This document shows, one piece after another, positions 4,264 to 11,045 of a stretch of DNA of 20,815 nt (its first letter is position 1; every line of letters begins with the position of its first letter). Under the pieces are notes generated by a model that saw nothing but the letters and a program-made list of their open reading frames with translations, did no database searches and was not told the DNA's origin. Both the position numbers and the translations under genes were made by a program. Origin of the DNA: a virus; IMG/VR virus record IMGVR_UViG_3300034190_000408, positions 1 through 20,815 of that record. One strand, written 5' to 3'.

Positions 4264-4941
4264 TTACTTGGTTAGTTTATTAAATGTTACAGCCGCAGTC
4301 ATACCATCTAGGTCTGCCCCTATGTCTGCTACTTCGGCTTTCTTCTTCTCAACAATCTTCTTGTGACGTTCCTTTGCTTCATCAGGTATTAAATCCCACA
4401 GTGCAGGCCATGCTTTCAATGCAGGTGCCAACGTGCTGTAGGTGTTGATGATTGCCTTAACACCTTCAAGAAACTTCTCTTGTTTAGATTCTTGTTCAAA
4501 GATTTTACGATTGTATTCTTTGAACTCAGGCTTTAACCAATCCCATCTTGTGTCATTGAAGTCACAAGTACCTGTACTGTACCCATTGTTAAAACCTGTA
4601 ACTTCTTTACTAAAGTTTCTAGGCCATGGTTGTGCTGTACTAAACTCAAGTCTTACACCATCACATTTGTATGCTTTGGTGTTGTACTCAGCAGTTTGAA
4701 ACACATCTTCGGGTTCATTGTGAAACCCACAGAATGTTATAGTTTCTTCCTTGTCCATTGCATAATCAGGTAATGCTTTGAACTTTGCTATGATTTCAGC
4801 AGGAAAGAAACATTGGTACATCTTATCTGCCCAATGTGCAGGTACATCTTTCTTAGCTTTTTCTATGTTTGCTTTGAACATAGCTTTAGCATTGCCTTGT
4901 ATAGTATCTTTTAATTGTTCACTAAATCTTACAGTTGCCAT
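4264..4941 (-). CDS. hypothetical phage protein, 225 residues (possibly Nmad5-like)
   Basis: The start is fixed by AAAGGAG about 8 bases upstream. The N-terminal third is helical (FSEQLKDTIQGNAKAMFKAN), followed by YQCFFPAEIIAKFKALPDYAM, a Cys/Trp-containing middle and a charged helical C-terminus (EAKERHKKIVEKKKAEVAD). A helical start leading to 'Y..FP......ALP' vaguely recalls phage proteins placed in the nucleotide-modification-associated family Nmad5. I hold that at low confidence because no catalytic residues can be named. There is no signal peptide or membrane segment. Its start codon lies inside the end of the upstream 63-residue gene (20-base overlap), so the two are likely translated together. 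Confidence 0.85.
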   Translation of the reverse strand: MATVRFSEQLKDTIQGNAKAMFKANIEKAKKDVPAHWADKMYQCFFPAEIIAKFKALPDYAMDKEETITFCGFHNEPEDVFQTAEYNTKAYKCDGVRLEFSTAQPWPRNFSKEVTGFNNGYSTGTCDFNDTRWDWLKPEFKEYNRKIFEQESKQEKFLEGVKAIINTYSTLAPALKAWPALWDLIPDEAKERHKKIVEKKKAEVADIGADLDGMTAAVTFNKLTK

Positions 4942-5113
4942 CTTGGTCTCCTTTGTTCCATTGATTAACTAAGTCACGAACATGCTGTTCAGCCATTGTT
5001 CCTAACTCTTTACCTATCTTGGTAAATGCTTGTTCGTTGGTCATGCCCCAGTCATCAAGGCAAGTGACCAACATAGTCTCTGCCTCAATCATTAGTTTTT
5101 TAACTTCACCCAT
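4922..5113 (-). CDS. small helical hypothetical protein, 63 residues
   Basis: The gene overlaps the VWA gene by 8 bases and the next gene by 20 bases. It has a perfect GGAGG 7 bases before its ATG, so it is very probably real. The product is one or two amphipathic helices: GEVKKLMIEAETMLVTCLDD, then MTNEQAFTKIGKELGTMAEQ, then VRDLVNQW. It is acidic overall with no metal or nucleotide motif. A size and helical character like this suits a small partner or adaptor of a neighbouring protein. Function unknown. Confidence 0.8.
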   Translation of the reverse strand: MGEVKKLMIEAETMLVTCLDDWGMTNEQAFTKIGKELGTMAEQHVRDLVNQWNKGDQDGNCKI

Positions 5114-6233
5114 TATTATCCTCCATCATTACAACTTCACCGAATGGTGCCTTGTCATCATGCGTTGACACCCATAGAACTGGGTAGTCAGGTGCATCAC
5201 CAAAGTCATCACAGCAAAGGTCAGTTAAAAATATACATGCTACAGGTTCAATGCCATGCTCAGTCATGTACTTGAATACAGGACTAAACGCAGTACCACC
5301 TCCACCATGTGGTTTCACAATAGGTTCATCATCTTGTCCGAACTCATCATAATGTGATACTTCGGAATCAAAATAAATCACATGAACCTTGGTTGGTTTT
5401 TGGTCTTGCCATACTGTAGTAATCTCACTAGCAAACTGATTGATTTCATCTTGACCAATCGAGCCTGAACAATCGACAGCAAAGGCAATCTCTCCTAGTG
5501 ATTCACCTGATACACTAGGTAAGTACAATCCTTGTGATAAGAATCGTCTGTTTGGTCTAGCCCATGAGCGTTGGTCAGACCGACACTTGACAACAAATCT
5601 CTGTAAGACATCCCTCCAGTCCACTTTGGGTTTAAGGATCTCATCAACTAGACGTTCAAGTCCTGCACTCATCTTGCCCATCATCTTTGCAGACTGAGCC
5701 GCTTGTGCAACTTTGACTTTCCACTCGGCTTGTTGTTGTGATACTTCAGCAGGTGAACCTTGCCCATCTTCACAACTGTCAAGTGGTTGACCTTGACCAC
5801 CATTACCTTGCCCATCTTCAGGTGTGTCAGGTAGAAGGTTGAAGATACCATCACTGGTACCTCCACCTTGCTTGTATATATTGTCATCAAGCAAACCTTG
5901 TGCAGGCATCTTACCGATACCCTCATCTGTCAACAGCTTGTTGATTACATAGTCAGCCGCTTGATTCCATTTGTAAGCATCACGCTCACCCCTACGGAAA
6001 TTGTGTTCCAACATAGGGTGCATACATTCGTGAGCAACAAGGAACTTAAGTTCCTCATCACTCAACCCATTGCAAAACTCCTCATTGAATAGGACACGTT
6101 TACCATTGGTTGCCGCAGTAGGTACTGAGTTATCAATACTCATTGGCATATTGAGAGCAACACTACCAATGAATGGATGCTCAAGAATCAATGCTGTCTT
6201 AGCTTTACTGATTCGTTTAGTTACATCTTGCAT
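5106..6233 (-). CDS. DUF2201-like metallopeptidase plus VWA-domain protein (CobT-like partner of AAA+ ATPase)
   Basis: Two domains are visible. Residues about 1-130 form a zincin-like domain with VAHECMH (H68, E69, H72), followed by a WNQAADYVIN helix as in DUF2201-type proteins. Residues 135-165 are a low-complexity Gly/Gln/Asp/Glu linker. Residues about 245-375 form a von Willebrand A-type domain with an intact metal-binding site: AVDCSGS (D254, S256, S258), GGGGTAF (T314) and FLTDL (D338). Such proteins work with a MoxR/CobS-like ATPase, here encoded two genes upstream, in chelatase or chaperone-like remodelling complexes. GGGAGG precedes the ATG, and the gene shares one base with the DUF3150 gene stop. 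Protease activity is possible from HExxH but unproven. The client in a phage is unknown. Confidence 0.9.
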   Translation of the reverse strand: MQDVTKRISKAKTALILEHPFIGSVALNMPMSIDNSVPTAATNGKRVLFNEEFCNGLSDEELKFLVAHECMHPMLEHNFRRGERDAYKWNQAADYVINKLLTDEGIGKMPAQGLLDDNIYKQGGGTSDGIFNLLPDTPEDGQGNGGQGQPLDSCEDGQGSPAEVSQQQAEWKVKVAQAAQSAKMMGKMSAGLERLVDEILKPKVDWRDVLQRFVVKCRSDQRSWARPNRRFLSQGLYLPSVSGESLGEIAFAVDCSGSIGQDEINQFASEITTVWQDQKPTKVHVIYFDSEVSHYDEFGQDDEPIVKPHGGGGTAFSPVFKYMTEHGIEPVACIFLTDLCCDDFGDAPDYPVLWVSTHDDKAPFGEVVMMEDNNG

Positions 6234-7084
6234 TAGTTACCTCCCATAAATGCACCCATCTTGTTCATAATGTCCTTAGCTTCAGCCGCTTTCACACGTC
6301 TCAAGTCAGGGTCATTACGCAAACTGTCAGGGTGGTTGTTGACTAATGACTGTTCAACTTGTTGGCGCATAGCTTCCAAGTCAGGGTCATCAGCAAAGTT
6401 AAGTCTTGATAGAACCGAACAAACTTCCTTGGTGTTATCAACGAGAGTATCTCGGAAGATAGCTTTAGGGTCTGCAAGTTTCTCAGCAATATGTTTGACC
6501 TTGTCATACAATCGTTGCCAAGCTTCTTTCATTGCTTGTTCAGCCGCATCTTGTACCCTCGTCTCAACATCAGATTGGATACGACTTAGTTCCTCATCTG
6601 AAATCTGAACACGAAAGTCATTAGATGGTACAGGGAATACAGCCAAGTCCATGTTGAACCTACGCTGTATATCGTGAAGCATAGGGTAGTCATTAGCATT
6701 GTAAAGATTACCAAGGAATCGTTGTGCATCCTGTTTAAGTCTTGGATACTCATCCCAAAATGTATTCACAAGTTGTTGCCATTCAGCTTTCTCATTCCTA
6801 AACTCAGTCATAAAGTTTAGATAGTTTGCAGATGGTAACAACATCGTACCCTCAATACCCCATGGTAGGGTATTGGCATAATACTTGGCACGAATAGCTG
6901 TAGTTTTCTTGTGAACATTATCTAGATAATCATTCATTGGTAACAACGATTTGTTGTATCTACCTGCACCAATCGTAGTATTGTTATGCTGTGCTACCTG
7001 TTCAGTAGCACGTTTGTCATACTTACGAGCAGTCCACTGTGATACATTGAGTTGCACCAGTAGTGCTTTGTCACTTAGTTTCAT
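6233..7084 (-). CDS. DUF3150-like protein, middle member of AAA/DUF3150/VWA trio
   Basis: The product is 283 residues and mostly helical. A predicted coiled-coil or helical bundle spans roughly residues 160-215 (ISDEELSRIQSDVETRVQDA through LYDKVKHIAEKLADP). It has a conserved-looking YYANTLPWGIEGTMLLPS stretch near residue 70 and a charged C-terminus ending in DIMNKMGAFMGGN. Position between a MoxR-type ATPase and a DUF2201/VWA protein is the characteristic place of DUF3150 proteins, and the W-x-ARKYDK-type beginning and helical body fit. AGGAGGT lies 5 to 6 bases before the ATG. The role in the complex is unknown; a scaffold or adaptor that links ATPase and VWA protein is a reasonable inference. 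Confidence 0.8.
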   Translation of the reverse strand: MKLSDKALLVQLNVSQWTARKYDKRATEQVAQHNNTTIGAGRYNKSLLPMNDYLDNVHKKTTAIRAKYYANTLPWGIEGTMLLPSANYLNFMTEFRNEKAEWQQLVNTFWDEYPRLKQDAQRFLGNLYNANDYPMLHDIQRRFNMDLAVFPVPSNDFRVQISDEELSRIQSDVETRVQDAAEQAMKEAWQRLYDKVKHIAEKLADPKAIFRDTLVDNTKEVCSVLSRLNFADDPDLEAMRQQVEQSLVNNHPDSLRNDPDLRRVKAAEAKDIMNKMGAFMGGN

Positions 7085-8533: not shown

Positions 8534-8730
8534 TTTACTAAACCTCCTTTCGTATTGAAACCAATCAAGTCCTTACGATTGGTCACTAACATGTAGTTAG
8601 ATTTGTGCATTGGTAGTACAGTATGCACTACCTTTTGAGCTTCCTTGTCACCACAAATCATGCAAGTAGTGTATCCTAAACTTACACGTTTGTCATGTAT
8701 ATCTGCATCACACATTACACATTGAGACAT
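8530..8730 (-). CDS. small zinc-ribbon protein, 66 residues
   Basis: The start at 8730 has GGAGGT 4 bases upstream; the longer frame from 8787 runs across a terminator hairpin and is rejected. Two CxxC pairs, CVMC (C4, C7) and CMIC (C23, C26), about 15 residues apart form a four-cysteine zinc-binding site. The second half contains VVHTVLPMHKSNYMLVTNRK and ends FNTKGGLVK. The zinc ribbon suggests nucleic-acid or protein binding. Small proteins with CxxC pairs and an HKSNY-like tail seem familiar from marine phages, but I know no function. It heads a chain of four overlapping micro-genes leading to the AAA+ gene. Confidence 0.75.
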   Translation of the reverse strand: MSQCVMCDADIHDKRVSLGYTTCMICGDKEAQKVVHTVLPMHKSNYMLVTNRKDLIGFNTKGGLVK

Positions 8731-8761
8731 ATAAACCTCCATAAATTGATTAATGAAACAC

Positions 8762-8794
8762 GAAAAGGGAGAGCAGTAATACACCACTCTCCCT
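8762..8794 (-). terminator. terminator-like hairpin after the 96-residue gene
   Basis: On the minus strand AGGGAGAG (8794-8787) pairs with CTCTCCCT (8773-8766) across a 13-base loop. It is followed by a short run of T (TTTTCG in total). It sits 8 bases after the stop of the 96-residue gene. The long loop and short T run suggest partial termination, letting some transcription continue into the downstream operon, for which I see no separate promoter. Confidence 0.65.
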
Positions 8795-8802
8795 GATTAT
8801 GA

Positions 8803-9093
8803 TTAAGCAAGTTTCTCAACCTTGCTCTTAGTGCCAGTTGTAGATGTTGGTAAGAATGCTACATAAGGAGCACCCCAACGATTCACTAGTAACATTGCTT
8901 TCAAGTCACCAGTATTAGATTCAGGTATGAAGAAGTTTACTTCAGCCTTCAACTTTGTACCAAGCTCTGTCATTGTCTTTGAAAGCTCATCAACTGATTC
9001 AGCATTGAACTGCCCCTCAGGATCTGCCTTTACAACAATGTTATTCTTAGTGTTCTTAAAGATTGATACATTACCTTCGTATATTTTAGCCAT
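8803..9093 (-). CDS. early small protein, paralogue A, 96 residues
   Basis: This gene and the one at 9984-10277 encode related proteins. Shared features are the start (M-x-x-I-x-EGNVS, then NTK), a central EL..x..EL helix, a C-terminal LL.x.R.G.P....LP core and the final KSKVxKLA. The fold appears to be a short beta sheet (EGNVSIF, NIVVKAD), a helix (ESVDELSKTMTELG) and a beta hairpin (AMLLVNRW, APYVAFLP). The start has GGAGGT and the leader AACTGGAGGTC, also used by the paralogue. The gene has terminator-like structures on both sides, so it is likely expressed at a level of its own. Function unknown; single-stranded DNA binding or host takeover are open guesses without motif support. Confidence 0.85.
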   Translation of the reverse strand: MAKIYEGNVSIFKNTKNNIVVKADPEGQFNAESVDELSKTMTELGTKLKAEVNFFIPESNTGDLKAMLLVNRWGAPYVAFLPTSTTGTKSKVEKLA

Positions 9094-9155
9094 ATTGACC
9101 TCCAGTTAAGTTAAGTTAAATACCCCTTGATGAATTGTATTAAAACAATCCCCGA

Positions 9156-9185
9156 GAGGCTTCGCCAGTTTGGGCGACGAGCCTC
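9156..9185. other. GC-rich hairpin in the leader of paralogue A
   Basis: GAGGCTTCGCC (9156-9166) can pair with GGCGA (9173-9177) and AGCCTC (9180-9185), with a 6-base loop and a 2-base CG bulge. The hairpin lies about 65 bases upstream of the start of the 96-residue gene, inside its probable leader. It has no T run on either side, so it is not a standard terminator. It could stabilise the transcript or act as a protein-binding site. Confidence 0.5.
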
Positions 9186-9337
9186 GATTTGTCAAGTTTG
9201 GCCCCGTACACAGAGAAAGCGTCAAGTTTAAACTACTAATTATCTACTGGTGGGTGGCACTATCTGTGTGTATGTTGTGGTTTATATAGGGTTAGTAGAT
9301 AGGTGTAATCGTTTGTTTGTAAGGGGTTGAGAGGAAG

Positions 9338-9574
9338 TATCTAAAGTATCTAAGTTTTAGAAAGTAATCTTTAACTACGCAAATTTCCTTATATTACACT
9401 AGATTTAGATTTGGAGAGTGATGTATGTAAATTTAATAGATAATTTAGATAGTTTAGATAGTATTCTCCTGCGTATATGGTGTAAACCCGCGTTAACAAA
9501 GGACATTTGGTTATTCTGTTGTAAACTTTCGCTATCTAAAACTCAACATGTTGTGTCAAGTATGCTTTTAGATA
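9338..9574. repeat. iteron-like cluster of TTTAGATA octamers
   Basis: Exact copies lie at 9444-9451 and 9453-9460 (plus), 9567-9574 (plus), and as TATCTAAA at 9338-9345 and 9533-9540 (minus orientation). Close variants are TATCTAAG at 9347-9354 and TTTAGATT at 9404-9411. Two pairs are head-to-tail 9-base repeats: AGTATCTAA twice at 9336-9353, and TTTAGATAG twice at 9444-9461. Such short clustered repeats in an intergenic region are typical of initiator- or regulator-binding sites. Low complexity of AT-rich DNA could add some chance copies. Confidence 0.55.
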
Positions 9575-9582
9575 CTAGATAG
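9421..9582 (+). CDS. possible 53-residue protein in the central region
   Basis: An ATG preceded by TTGGAGAGTG opens a 53-codon frame ending at TAG. The product starts MYVNLIDNLDSLDSILLRIW and continues with TKDIWLFCCKLSLSKTQHVV before ending SSMLLDTR. The LDSLDS section is encoded by the tandem TTTAGATAG repeats. The segment around LSLSKTQHVVSSML has a weak helix-turn-helix look (a small residue turn followed by S/T-K-T and a hydrophobic helix). If real it would be the only plus-strand gene left of the terminase, possibly a short regulator. Evidence against: isolation, short length, and overlap with DNA repeats that could have their own function. Confidence 0.35.
   Translation: MYVNLIDNLDSLDSILLRIWCKPALTKDIWLFCCKLSLSKTQHVVSSMLLDTR
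9458..9486 (-). promoter_or_regulatory. candidate minus-strand sigma-70 promoter
   Basis: On the minus strand TTTACA (9486-9481) is followed after 17 bases by TACTAT (9463-9458). These match 5 of 6 and 4 of 6 consensus positions. It would drive paralogue A and perhaps, by read-through, the replication operon. It lies between TTTAGATA copies, so a protein bound there could control it. The leader would be about 360 bases long, which is unusual and lowers confidence. Confidence 0.35.
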
Positions 9583-9709
9583 TTGTATAACTTTACACCA
9601 AATGAGCCACAACCTGTAAACTAAAGGTTTAACTTGACGTTTAATCTAAGATAATGTCGTGCCGAAACCCCCCGACGTATGGGATATATATTATTAAAAA
9701 ATAAAAGAC

Positions 9710-9741
9710 AAAAAAAAGAGAGAGCCTTGGTAGACTCCCTC
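9710..9741 (-). terminator. Rho-independent terminator of the 60-residue gene transcript
   Basis: On the minus strand GAGGGAG (9741-9735) pairs with CTCTCTC (9724-9718), with one G-T wobble and a 10-base loop, followed directly by eight T residues (9717-9710). It begins 8 bases after the stop of the 60-residue gene. This is the clearest terminator of the left arm. It implies that the two genes at 9750-10277 form a separate transcript. Confidence 0.8.
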
Positions 9742-9749
9742 CGTTCTTC

Positions 9750-9932
9750 TTACTGTGGTTTCCTAGCTGGGTTGTATGAGACTGTTACATTGTCTGCTTC
9801 GATCTCTGTGTCATGCTTCAGCTTGAATGCTAGGTTCTTGGCGTCAGCTTCCTTGTAGTACCATCTTGAGAAAAGGTTTCCGTATTCAATCCAATCTACT
9901 CGGTACTCTCTTTTACAATCTTTCATTGACAT
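9750..9932 (-). CDS. small hypothetical protein, 60 residues
   Basis: The ATG at 9932 has GGAG 6 bases upstream within the leader word AACTGGAG that is also used by the two paralogues. The product is charged and aromatic (KREYRVDWIEYGNLFSRWYY), followed by a Lys-rich helix (EADAKNLAFKLKHD) and a short beta strand (ADNVTVSYNP). It is soluble without metal motifs. A hairpin precedes it and a strong terminator follows it, so it is the last gene of a two-gene early transcript. Function unknown. Confidence 0.75.
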   Translation of the reverse strand: MSMKDCKREYRVDWIEYGNLFSRWYYKEADAKNLAFKLKHDTEIEADNVTVSYNPARKPQ

Positions 9933-9952
9933 AATTGTCTCCAGTTTGTTGT

Positions 9953-9974
9953 GAGGGGAGATTGCTCTCCCCTC
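9953..9974 (-). other. perfect 9-base-pair intercistronic hairpin
   Basis: GAGGGGAGA (9953-9961) and TCTCCCCTC (9966-9974) form a perfect stem with a 4-base TTGC loop, between the 97-residue and 60-residue genes. No T run follows on the minus strand. It may therefore be a transcript-stabilising or processing hairpin protecting the upstream message, or an attenuator. Confidence 0.6.
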
Positions 9975-9983
9975 GGGGTTAAG

Positions 9984-10277
9984 TTAGGCTAGCTTTGTCA
10001 CTTTTGACTTGGCTTGACCCTCGGCCTTTGGTGGCAAGATAGTAATTCTAGGATTACCGTATCTGTCCGCCATTAGTAGAACATCAGTTCCACCGTCGGC
10101 CTTGAAGAAACTCCACTTATGTAGTGGCATTTTCTTCGCCTTACTAAGTTCCTGAGCCTTAGCGTACAGTTCCTTAGCGTTAGTTGAATTCCAAGCGCCG
10201 TTTAGGTCGCGCTTCAGGGCAATCTCACCCTTGGTGTTAGCAACTAGGCTAACATTACCTTCAAAGATTCTACTCAT
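9984..10277 (-). CDS. early small protein, paralogue B, 97 residues
   Basis: This is the first gene of the left arm and a clear relative of the 96-residue protein at 8803-9093. It shares EGNVS near the N-terminus, NTK, and LMADRYGNP aligning with LLVNRWGAP. The final KSKVTKLA matches KSKVEKLA. Its start uses the same AACTGGAGGTC leader. The middle is basic (KAQELSKAKKMPLHKWSFFK), unlike the more acidic paralogue A, so the pair may have diverged in partner. It is driven by a good minus-strand promoter about 70 bases upstream, so it is likely among the earliest and strongest expressed genes. Function unknown. Confidence 0.85.
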   Translation of the reverse strand: MSRIFEGNVSLVANTKGEIALKRDLNGAWNSTNAKELYAKAQELSKAKKMPLHKWSFFKADGGTDVLLMADRYGNPRITILPPKAEGQAKSKVTKLA

Positions 10278-10294
10278 GTAGACCTCCAGTTGTT

Positions 10295-10339
10295 AGTCAG
10301 TATTCCCGCTGACTGTTCGGGTATCAACGTTTTGTTGAT
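10295..10339 (-). other. two small hairpins in the leader of paralogue B
   Basis: ATCAAC (10323-10328) and GTTGAT (10334-10339) form a 6-base stem with a 5-base loop, just downstream of the minus-strand -10 box. AGTCAG (10295-10300) and CTGACT (10309-10314) form a second 6-base stem with an 8-base loop. Both lie in the transcript leader before the GGAGGT site. The first overlaps the expected transcription start, so it could also be an operator. Confidence 0.4.
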
Positions 10340-10340
10340 G

Positions 10341-10430
10341 ATTTAACTATGGATTAAATTTACACGTTTGTCAAGTATGCCCTATTTATGCCACTTATAC
10401 GCGCCTTATATTTTGACTATTGGATTAAAT
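10341..10430. repeat. direct repeat TTTRACTAT-(T)GGATTAAAT
   Basis: TTTAACTATGGATTAAAT (10342-10359) recurs about 70 bases on as TTTGACTATTGGATTAAAT (10412-10430), differing by one substitution and one inserted T. The first copy covers the -10 box of the leftward promoter. The arrangement suggests paired binding sites of a regulator between the divergent transcripts. Confidence 0.5.
10346..10374 (-). promoter_or_regulatory. minus-strand sigma-70 promoter for the early genes
   Basis: On the minus strand TTGACA (10374-10369) is a perfect -35, followed after 17 bases by CATAGT (10351-10346), 4 of 6 in the -10. It is preceded by GCATAC, giving the CTTGAC word favoured in alphaproteobacterial promoters. 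The same 12-base word, as TGTCAAGTATGC on the plus strand, recurs at 9554-9565. It points leftward at the 97-residue gene, with a leader of about 60 to 70 bases. Confidence 0.65.
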
Positions 10431-10434
10431 GGCA

Positions 10435-10471
10435 GGGGGGTACATGGACACGCAACCGACCCCTCCCCCCC
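10435..10471. other. G6 / C7 tract upstream of terminase
   Basis: GGGGGG (10435-10440) and CCCC-T-CCCCCCC (10460-10471) flank a 19-base segment in otherwise AT-rich intergenic DNA, about 100 bases before the terminase small subunit. They can form a strong stem. There is no T run on either side. Possible roles are a packaging recognition or cleavage site, or a barrier between divergent transcripts; neither is shown. Confidence 0.4.
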
Positions 10472-10531
10472 ATATAAGTAAACCTCACATAACAAGACCC
10501 AAAAAATCCAAGTGTAAAGTTTCACAAATTG

Positions 10532-10559
10532 TTGACAGCGGAGTAATTTTAGGCATAAT
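10532..10559 (+). promoter_or_regulatory. strong plus-strand sigma-70 promoter for the terminase genes
   Basis: A perfect TTGACA (10532-10537) is followed after 16 bases by CATAAT (10554-10559), 5 of 6. Transcription would begin near 10566, only about 3 bases before the ATG of the terminase gene, so the message would be nearly leaderless. An imperfect palindrome GTGTAAAGTTTCAC (10512-10525) lies just upstream of the -35 and may be an operator. Confidence 0.7.
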
Positions 10560-10568
10560 GTTTTAGTT

Positions 10569-11045
10569 ATGGACACTATACCTTTGAAACATACAAAGTG
10601 GTCTGACCGTTTCGCCTTCGATACAGCGCTTATGCTAGAAGGCAGCGGAGAGACTTTAGACGAAGTAAAAGATCGGCATAAGATTACTGCCGAGGATATA
10701 CTTGTGTTTAATAAAGATCCTATATTTCTTAAGAAGGTAACTTCTTATAGAGATGAGATTAAAGAGAAAGGCATGACTTTCAAATTGAAAGCTCGTGCTC
10801 AAGCAGAAGAACTACTAACAACCTCTTGGAGTTTAATCCACAGTCCAGATACTTCGGCTGCGGTTAAAGCTGACCTTATTAAATCCACAGTTAAGTGGGG
10901 TGGGCTTGAACCTAAGGGCGACATTACAACGGAGGGTGCAGGTGGAGGAGTTAAAATTACAATCAATCTCGGAGGACAAGAACATCCAGCAACTGTTATC
11001 GACGCTGAAGCAGTTGAAGACACAACAGCGATTGGAAGTTCTTAA
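10569..11045 (+). CDS. terminase small subunit-like protein
   Basis: At 158 residues, helical and charged, this protein fits a small terminase subunit, the DNA-recognition component of the packaging motor. The N-terminal region contains SDRFAFDTALMLEGSGETLD and then VKDRHKITAEDILVF, resembling the helix-turn-helix DNA-binding start of such proteins. A central helical oligomerisation region (KARAQAEELLTTSWSLIHSP, then AAVKADLIKSTVKWGG) and a Gly/acid-rich tail follow. The gene stands two small genes before the large subunit, the normal order. No ribosome site precedes the ATG and a promoter lies immediately upstream, so leaderless initiation is likely. Assignment rests on position and architecture more than on sequence signature. 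Confidence 0.75.
   Translation: MDTIPLKHTKWSDRFAFDTALMLEGSGETLDEVKDRHKITAEDILVFNKDPIFLKKVTSYRDEIKEKGMTFKLKARAQAEELLTTSWSLIHSPDTSAAVKADLIKSTVKWGGLEPKGDITTEGAGGGVKITINLGGQEHPATVIDAEAVEDTTAIGSS

Follow-up and report, generated by a model that had tools for sequence, protein, structure and literature searches.

In the origins of phage lambda and of iteron plasmids, tandem initiator sites adjoin easily melted DNA. The alpha protein of satellite P4, a primase-helicase, recognizes short 8-bp iterons (ori/crr) via its C-terminal part. The origins of iteron plasmids have been reviewed (PMC4980987). A study of the SaPI/PICI origins used with Pri-Rep, in which iterons lie beside an AT-rich region, also refers to the P4 alpha protein and its ori (PMC6092414). 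In PolA/DUF927 viruses of Aquificae, the proposed origin lies in an intergenic region with repeats, where the skew switches (PMC7689252). The DUF927 family comprises predicted helicases of mobile elements, one of which was reported to be a genuine helicase, and a C-terminal winged-helix domain was suggested to act in origin recognition in another primase family (PMC5862659).

We analyzed a window comprising positions 1-20,815 of IMGVR_UViG_3300034190_000408, a record of an uncultured marine phage, and found in it a conserved repeat element that is probably, judging from sequence comparison, the iteron-type replication origin of this phage family. The leftward left arm of the window encodes a family-A DNA polymerase, a MoxR ATPase, and further genes, and the right arm encodes the terminase, portal, and major head protein. 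Even the closest annotated isolates are remote (polymerase ≤39% and terminase ≤44% identical); uncultured relatives are numerous in IMG/VR, and the near-complete ones used here measure 49-58 kb. The element occupies a non-coding gap (9094-9749) flanked by two leftward genes, 8803-9093 and 9750-9932. The first-pass annotation had placed the repeats between the divergent arms, but both neighbors point leftward and the arms part at 10278-10568, to the right of the gap. Comparison of the gap DNA with known phages gave a single short chance match, to a Mycoplasma phage. Elsewhere in the left arm, the gene at 5106-6233(-), which follows the MoxR ATPase and a weakly DUF3150-like protein, carries the PHROG 1314 label HNH endonuclease; by eye it has a VWA-like DCSGSIG and an HExxH-like HECMH, and the label may be wrong. 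For the gene at 4264-4941(-), the nucleotide-modification-associated domain Nmad5 gave a weak match that falls short of the curated cut-off (E 4e-5).

The repeat cluster reported by the first-pass annotation is real: five exact TTTAGATA octamers, three forward and two reverse, lie within 9338-9574 (Table 1). The rest of the window holds two more, at 6816 and 19702, giving seven where 1.3 were expected. In 200 dinucleotide shuffles of the window, no octamer occurred more than four times per 240 bases, and four copies were reached in only 2 of the 200; 2000 shuffles of the gap contained at most two TTTAGATA each. The cluster is above chance both with TTTAGATA preset and with any octamer allowed. 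The span originally assigned to it, 9330-9590, is only part of a larger element of about 9241-9720, because the core unit is the hexamer TAGATA, found across 9241-9648 as ten TAGATA and three TAGATT sites. A reported 9-base inverted repeat (9478-9486/9592-9600) is exact in the window, but its halves belong to two separate conserved boxes, and the alignment, inspected by eye, showed that their pairing is not maintained in every relative. The palindrome described at 9544-9553 is likewise exact.

Table 1. Coordinates of the element, its parts, and adjoining features in the window
Feature	Position	Strand	Remarks
96-residue protein gene	8803..9093	-	Lies downstream of the element; its own terminator-like site follows at 8794-8766
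Whole conserved cis element (iteron array, second repeat family, single-copy motif, AT-rich tract)	9241..9720		Aligned across 46 unique relatives; in relatives examined, no TAGATW cluster upstream of terS is denser
Second repeat family TGT[AC]AA[GC]T	9190(+), 9520(+), 9554(+), 9590(-), 9615(+)		Span 9190..9622; overlaps -35-like TTGACA/TTTACA
Outer TAGATA site	9241..9246	-	
Outer TAGATA site	9296..9301	+	
Tandem TAGATA pair, 9-bp period	9337..9354	-	Pair kept in most relatives
Exact TTTAGATA octamers	9338-9345(-), 9444-9451(+), 9453-9460(+), 9533-9540(-), 9567-9574(+)		
One-mismatch TTTAGATA copies	9347(-), 9356(+), 9404(+), 9424(-)		
Two TAGATT variant sites	9400..9411	+	Found only in the window's close relatives
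Tandem TAGATA triplet, 9-bp period	9437..9461	+	Inside the least stable 40-bp stretch, 9424-9463
Single TTTAGATA	9533..9540	-	78 bp from the triplet
Palindrome CAACATGTTG	9544..9553		Longer form ACACAACATGTTGTGT in some relatives
TAGATA pair, 7 bp apart	9569..9581	+	
Single-copy conserved motif AACCCCCCGACGTATGG	9666..9682	+	
AT-rich tract	9684..9723		Ranks third in instability among the window's 40-bp stretches; extends into the terminator stem
Rho-independent-type terminator of the 9750-9932 gene	9717..9742	-	Shields the element from leftward transcription

Among 46 distinct gaps of relatives, the octamers, where present, recur at matching distances, the usual offsets from the start of the 96-aa gene being 244(-), 350(+), 359(+), 439(-), and 473(+), and the remainder of each relative's locus is almost without the octamer. 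The common order upstream of terS is a reverse pair in a 9-bp step, two to three forward sites in a 9-bp step, a lone reverse site, and two more forward sites. In most of 75 distinct elements (scored as TAGATA/T), the reverse pair is separated by 99 bp from the forward pair or triplet, which lies 78 bp from the single reverse site, followed after 36 bp by the forward end pair, whose members are 7-9 bp apart across the distinct elements. In loci with a terS 63-100% identical to that of the window, the densest TAGATA/T cluster lies about 1.2-2.2 kb upstream of terS. The order and the 9-bp steps are kept down to a terS identity of ~70%, and the exact distances in most relatives above ~75%; at ~70-73% the distances are shifted (e.g. 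119-133 bp versus 99), and two loci at 59% have three sites only. In six near-complete genomes, the element is the TAGATA-densest 500 bp, and the repeat is enriched solely here. On these comparisons, the element is conserved throughout one family of uncultured marine phages. In the G002 record (53,165 bases), a terminal repeat of 99 bp falls within the element, consistent with a genome that is circular or permuted.

Beside the array lies a motif, AACCCCCCGANNNATGG. A search of 18 records with its 19-base form, three mismatches allowed, found it in 16, each time as a single copy and in one orientation. L176, one of the two records without a match, has the variant GGCCCCCGACGTATGG at the same place. 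An exact scan of viral contigs for the motif led to 75 newly fetched loci, 48 of them family-like by shared proteins; 47 of these are credible, with the motif in the same context, and one, L291, is weakly similar with its context unmatched. The other 27 matches share no context and look like chance. The motif is absent from the isolates KPP25, RHph_TM3_14A, Rollin, and Hodr. The distant relatives L277, L282, L292, L192, and L176 retain it, some as a variant. Their gap repeats differ, being AACTTAACA-type in L292, GGTGTAAAG in L176, and TAGATAAA in L192; because distant relatives carry other gap repeats, the second repeat family may drift in concert too. The enrichment of TGT[AC]AA[GC]T in the element is about ten-fold in six genomes, with scattered copies elsewhere as well. 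The element gave no Rfam match to a structured RNA, and its segments, the terminator apart, fold no differently from shuffles.

The first-pass annotation had also proposed GC skew as a check on an origin. In six genomes, the cumulative minimum does fall 0-1.4 kb from the element; the coding strand switches at this point too, so the minimum is not independent support. The maximum lies 16-18 kb to the left and ~36 kb the other way. Because gene direction switches there and the maximum is not opposite the element, the skew neither supports nor refutes an origin.

The near-complete relatives encode two candidate initiators. About 14 kb from the element (e.g. in G001), a 96-aa helix-turn-helix (HTH) gene stands directly before the gene for a 951-aa helicase-primase, which contains a DUF927 helicase domain (E 4.9e-31) and, at its N terminus, primase-like motifs recognized by eye, the Pfam match being weak. 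Both genes are present in the near-complete genomes checked and missing solely from shorter contigs; the window itself ends before this region. Compared with solved structures, the HTH protein showed weak similarity to Cro/C1 proteins (E 0.05-0.08). The HTH gene of G011 (G011:C1:11335-11613) has one in-frame TAG, which could be a sequencing error, a broken gene, or stop read-through. Two paralogous proteins of 96/97 aa, 36% identical, flank the element at 8803-9093(-) and 9984-10277(-); each is kept in many relatives and is without known fold or family. They had been put forward earlier as binders of the repeats, but G012 (locus L190) has the element without a detectable paralogue. As DNA binders they were also set aside on a single fold model, which was weak (pLDDT 69) and gave no PDB matches.

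The phages differ in the last base of the iteron, which is predominantly A in one set and predominantly T in another. We read the class of each element directly from its sequence, taking elements with at least five sites after removal of identical terminases and "mostly" as at least 3:1. This gave 59 mostly TAGATA, 37 mostly TAGATT, and 3 mixed elements, a 59:37 ratio that is not a natural frequency, because many TAGATT members came from a TAGATT pattern scan, and that rests on classes defined after the data were seen. A scan with TAGATTATTTAGATTA matched mostly unrelated AT-rich DNA and ~20 loci of the family. Most sites of one element switch together, and this concerted switching therefore implies a sequence-specific binder acting in trans.

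We compared the classes with gene trees. The TAGATT group around L076, L071, and L266 falls within the TAGATA group in the terL tree, whereas in the helicase-primase tree the TAGATA genomes form one clade with support of 100/100. The terL data reject a TAGATA clade (p-AU 1.2e-4); the MoxR tree (p 0.15) and the terS tree (p 0.23) do not. In the HTH stretch TTSNMAELL, Asn is found in 16/16 TAGATA genomes and Asp/Glu in 9/9 TAGATT genomes, and this residue is placed at the start of the second helix by the weak alignment to Cro/C1 proteins. G007, a TAGATT genome, has Asp/Glu at this position though its HTH is otherwise closer to the TAGATA type; G056, with TAGATC/TAGATT sites, retains Asn. In the helicase-primase, the classes are separated at 13 of 969 columns, and eight of the 13 fall in the C-terminal part, between 706 and 849 (open-frame numbering); this part of G056 and G019 sides with the TAGATT type. 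No class-separating columns were found in terL, MoxR, or terS. The A/T switch occurred independently 2-3 times, which leaves the independent-pairs test without power, and because the switches are so few we attach no significance to the coupling. An iteron binder encoded by the replication module is likely, because the class agrees with the helicase-primase tree and with residues of the HTH protein and the helicase-primase, and not with the terL tree. These comparisons are read most simply if the element forms part of the replication module, although linkage within the left arm could account for the match with the helicase-primase tree. Enrichment, kept arrangement, and class agreement with two replication-module proteins together support the earlier suggestion of an initiator or regulator binding array.

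As in iteron origins, a short repeat is clustered at one place in the genome, its spacing is regular and tandem (9-bp steps, with order and distances kept), and easily melted DNA is adjacent: of all 40-mers in the window, those starting at 9424 and 9684 rank first and third in instability, and both lie in the element. Tandem sites beside easily melted DNA are shared with lambda ori and iteron plasmids; the step of 9 bp and the mixed orientations differ from their ~18-22 bp direct repeats. The clustering of class-linked residues in the C-terminal part recalls P4 alpha, but the helicase family here is DUF927 and the P4 iteron sequence is different. With the SaPI/PICI origins, the locus has in common short iterons by an AT-rich region and a primase and initiator/helicase, here putative, encoded by the replicon itself. 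In those origins, which directly follow rep on its 3' side, the AT-rich region has an iteron set on either side (PMC6092414), whereas here the array is ~14 kb from the helicase-primase gene (G001) and is accompanied by a single-copy C-rich motif. The PolA/DUF927 viruses likewise combine a family-A polymerase and a DUF927 helicase with a repeat-bearing intergenic region of ~1 kb near a switch in gene direction and GC skew; their repeats were described as stem-loop forming, in contrast to ordered iterons in a kept arrangement, and both origins are putative.

By analogy with such systems, we infer protein binding, melting, and priming at the element, and we also infer the choice of binder among the two candidates. 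An initiator from the replication module would bind the TAGATA iterons in tandem 9-bp steps and in both orientations. The complex would open weak DNA, either at 9424-9463 or in the AT-rich tract at 9684-9723 beside the single-copy motif. The primase-helicase, in which a primase of archaeo-eukaryotic type is joined to a DUF927 helicase, would then load, prime, and hand over to the phage family-A DNA polymerase. A more speculative possibility, to which we give limited credence, is that AACCCCCCGANNNATGG serves the primase-DUF927 helicase as a dedicated site of priming (or nicking) and works together with an iteron array whose recognized base switched more than once with the initiator; the origin would then consist of two parts, a frozen priming site and a drifting initiator code.

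The position of the candidate initiator genes, ~14 kb off and non-adjacent, counts against an origin, and a Cro/C1-like HTH suits a repressor equally. The main rival is a transcriptional control region, in which the HTH protein would use TAGATA as operators and control leftward early transcription from the -35-like TTGACA/TTTACA sequences in the gap. We regard this as possible but rather unlikely. Besides its weak Cro/C1 resemblance, the HTH protein has a residue that covaries with iteron class; -35-like repeats are enriched in the gap, which lies upstream of a leftward gene, and a weak leftward promoter-like site (9486-9458) overlaps the TAGATA triplet. However, the gene that would be served, 8803-9093, directly meets its own terminator-like site and has no detectable homologue in G012, which retains the element. 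Promoter-like sites in 8700-10700 are not above chance (6 versus 4.4 expected; the search covered the sigma-70 consensus alone), and a conserved arrangement of ~250 bp with a single-copy motif exceeds what a promoter needs.

The closeness of the element to terS, with a pac site 0.9-1.6 kb upstream of that gene, would suit recognition by the small terminase, as would its scattered positions in near-complete contigs, which are those expected of circularly permuted headful genomes or circular assemblies. Such a site is nevertheless very improbable: the iteron class is at odds with the terL tree (p-AU 1.2e-4), though the terS tree fits either view (p 0.23), no terS column matches the class, and pac sites are usually found within or at terS. 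Several site classes around one single-copy motif also bear a general resemblance to other nucleoprotein sites, such as a partition centromere or a recombination site; the part of the genes scanned against families included no ParA/ParB or integrase, and we consider this reading improbable.

A replication origin thus remains the reading that we prefer. The element would provide a defined, testable origin candidate for uncultured marine phages with genomes of ~54 kb, with two named proteins predicted as initiator, and its natural paired variants, TAGATA with Asn and TAGATT with Asp, may make the co-change of initiator and origin readable.
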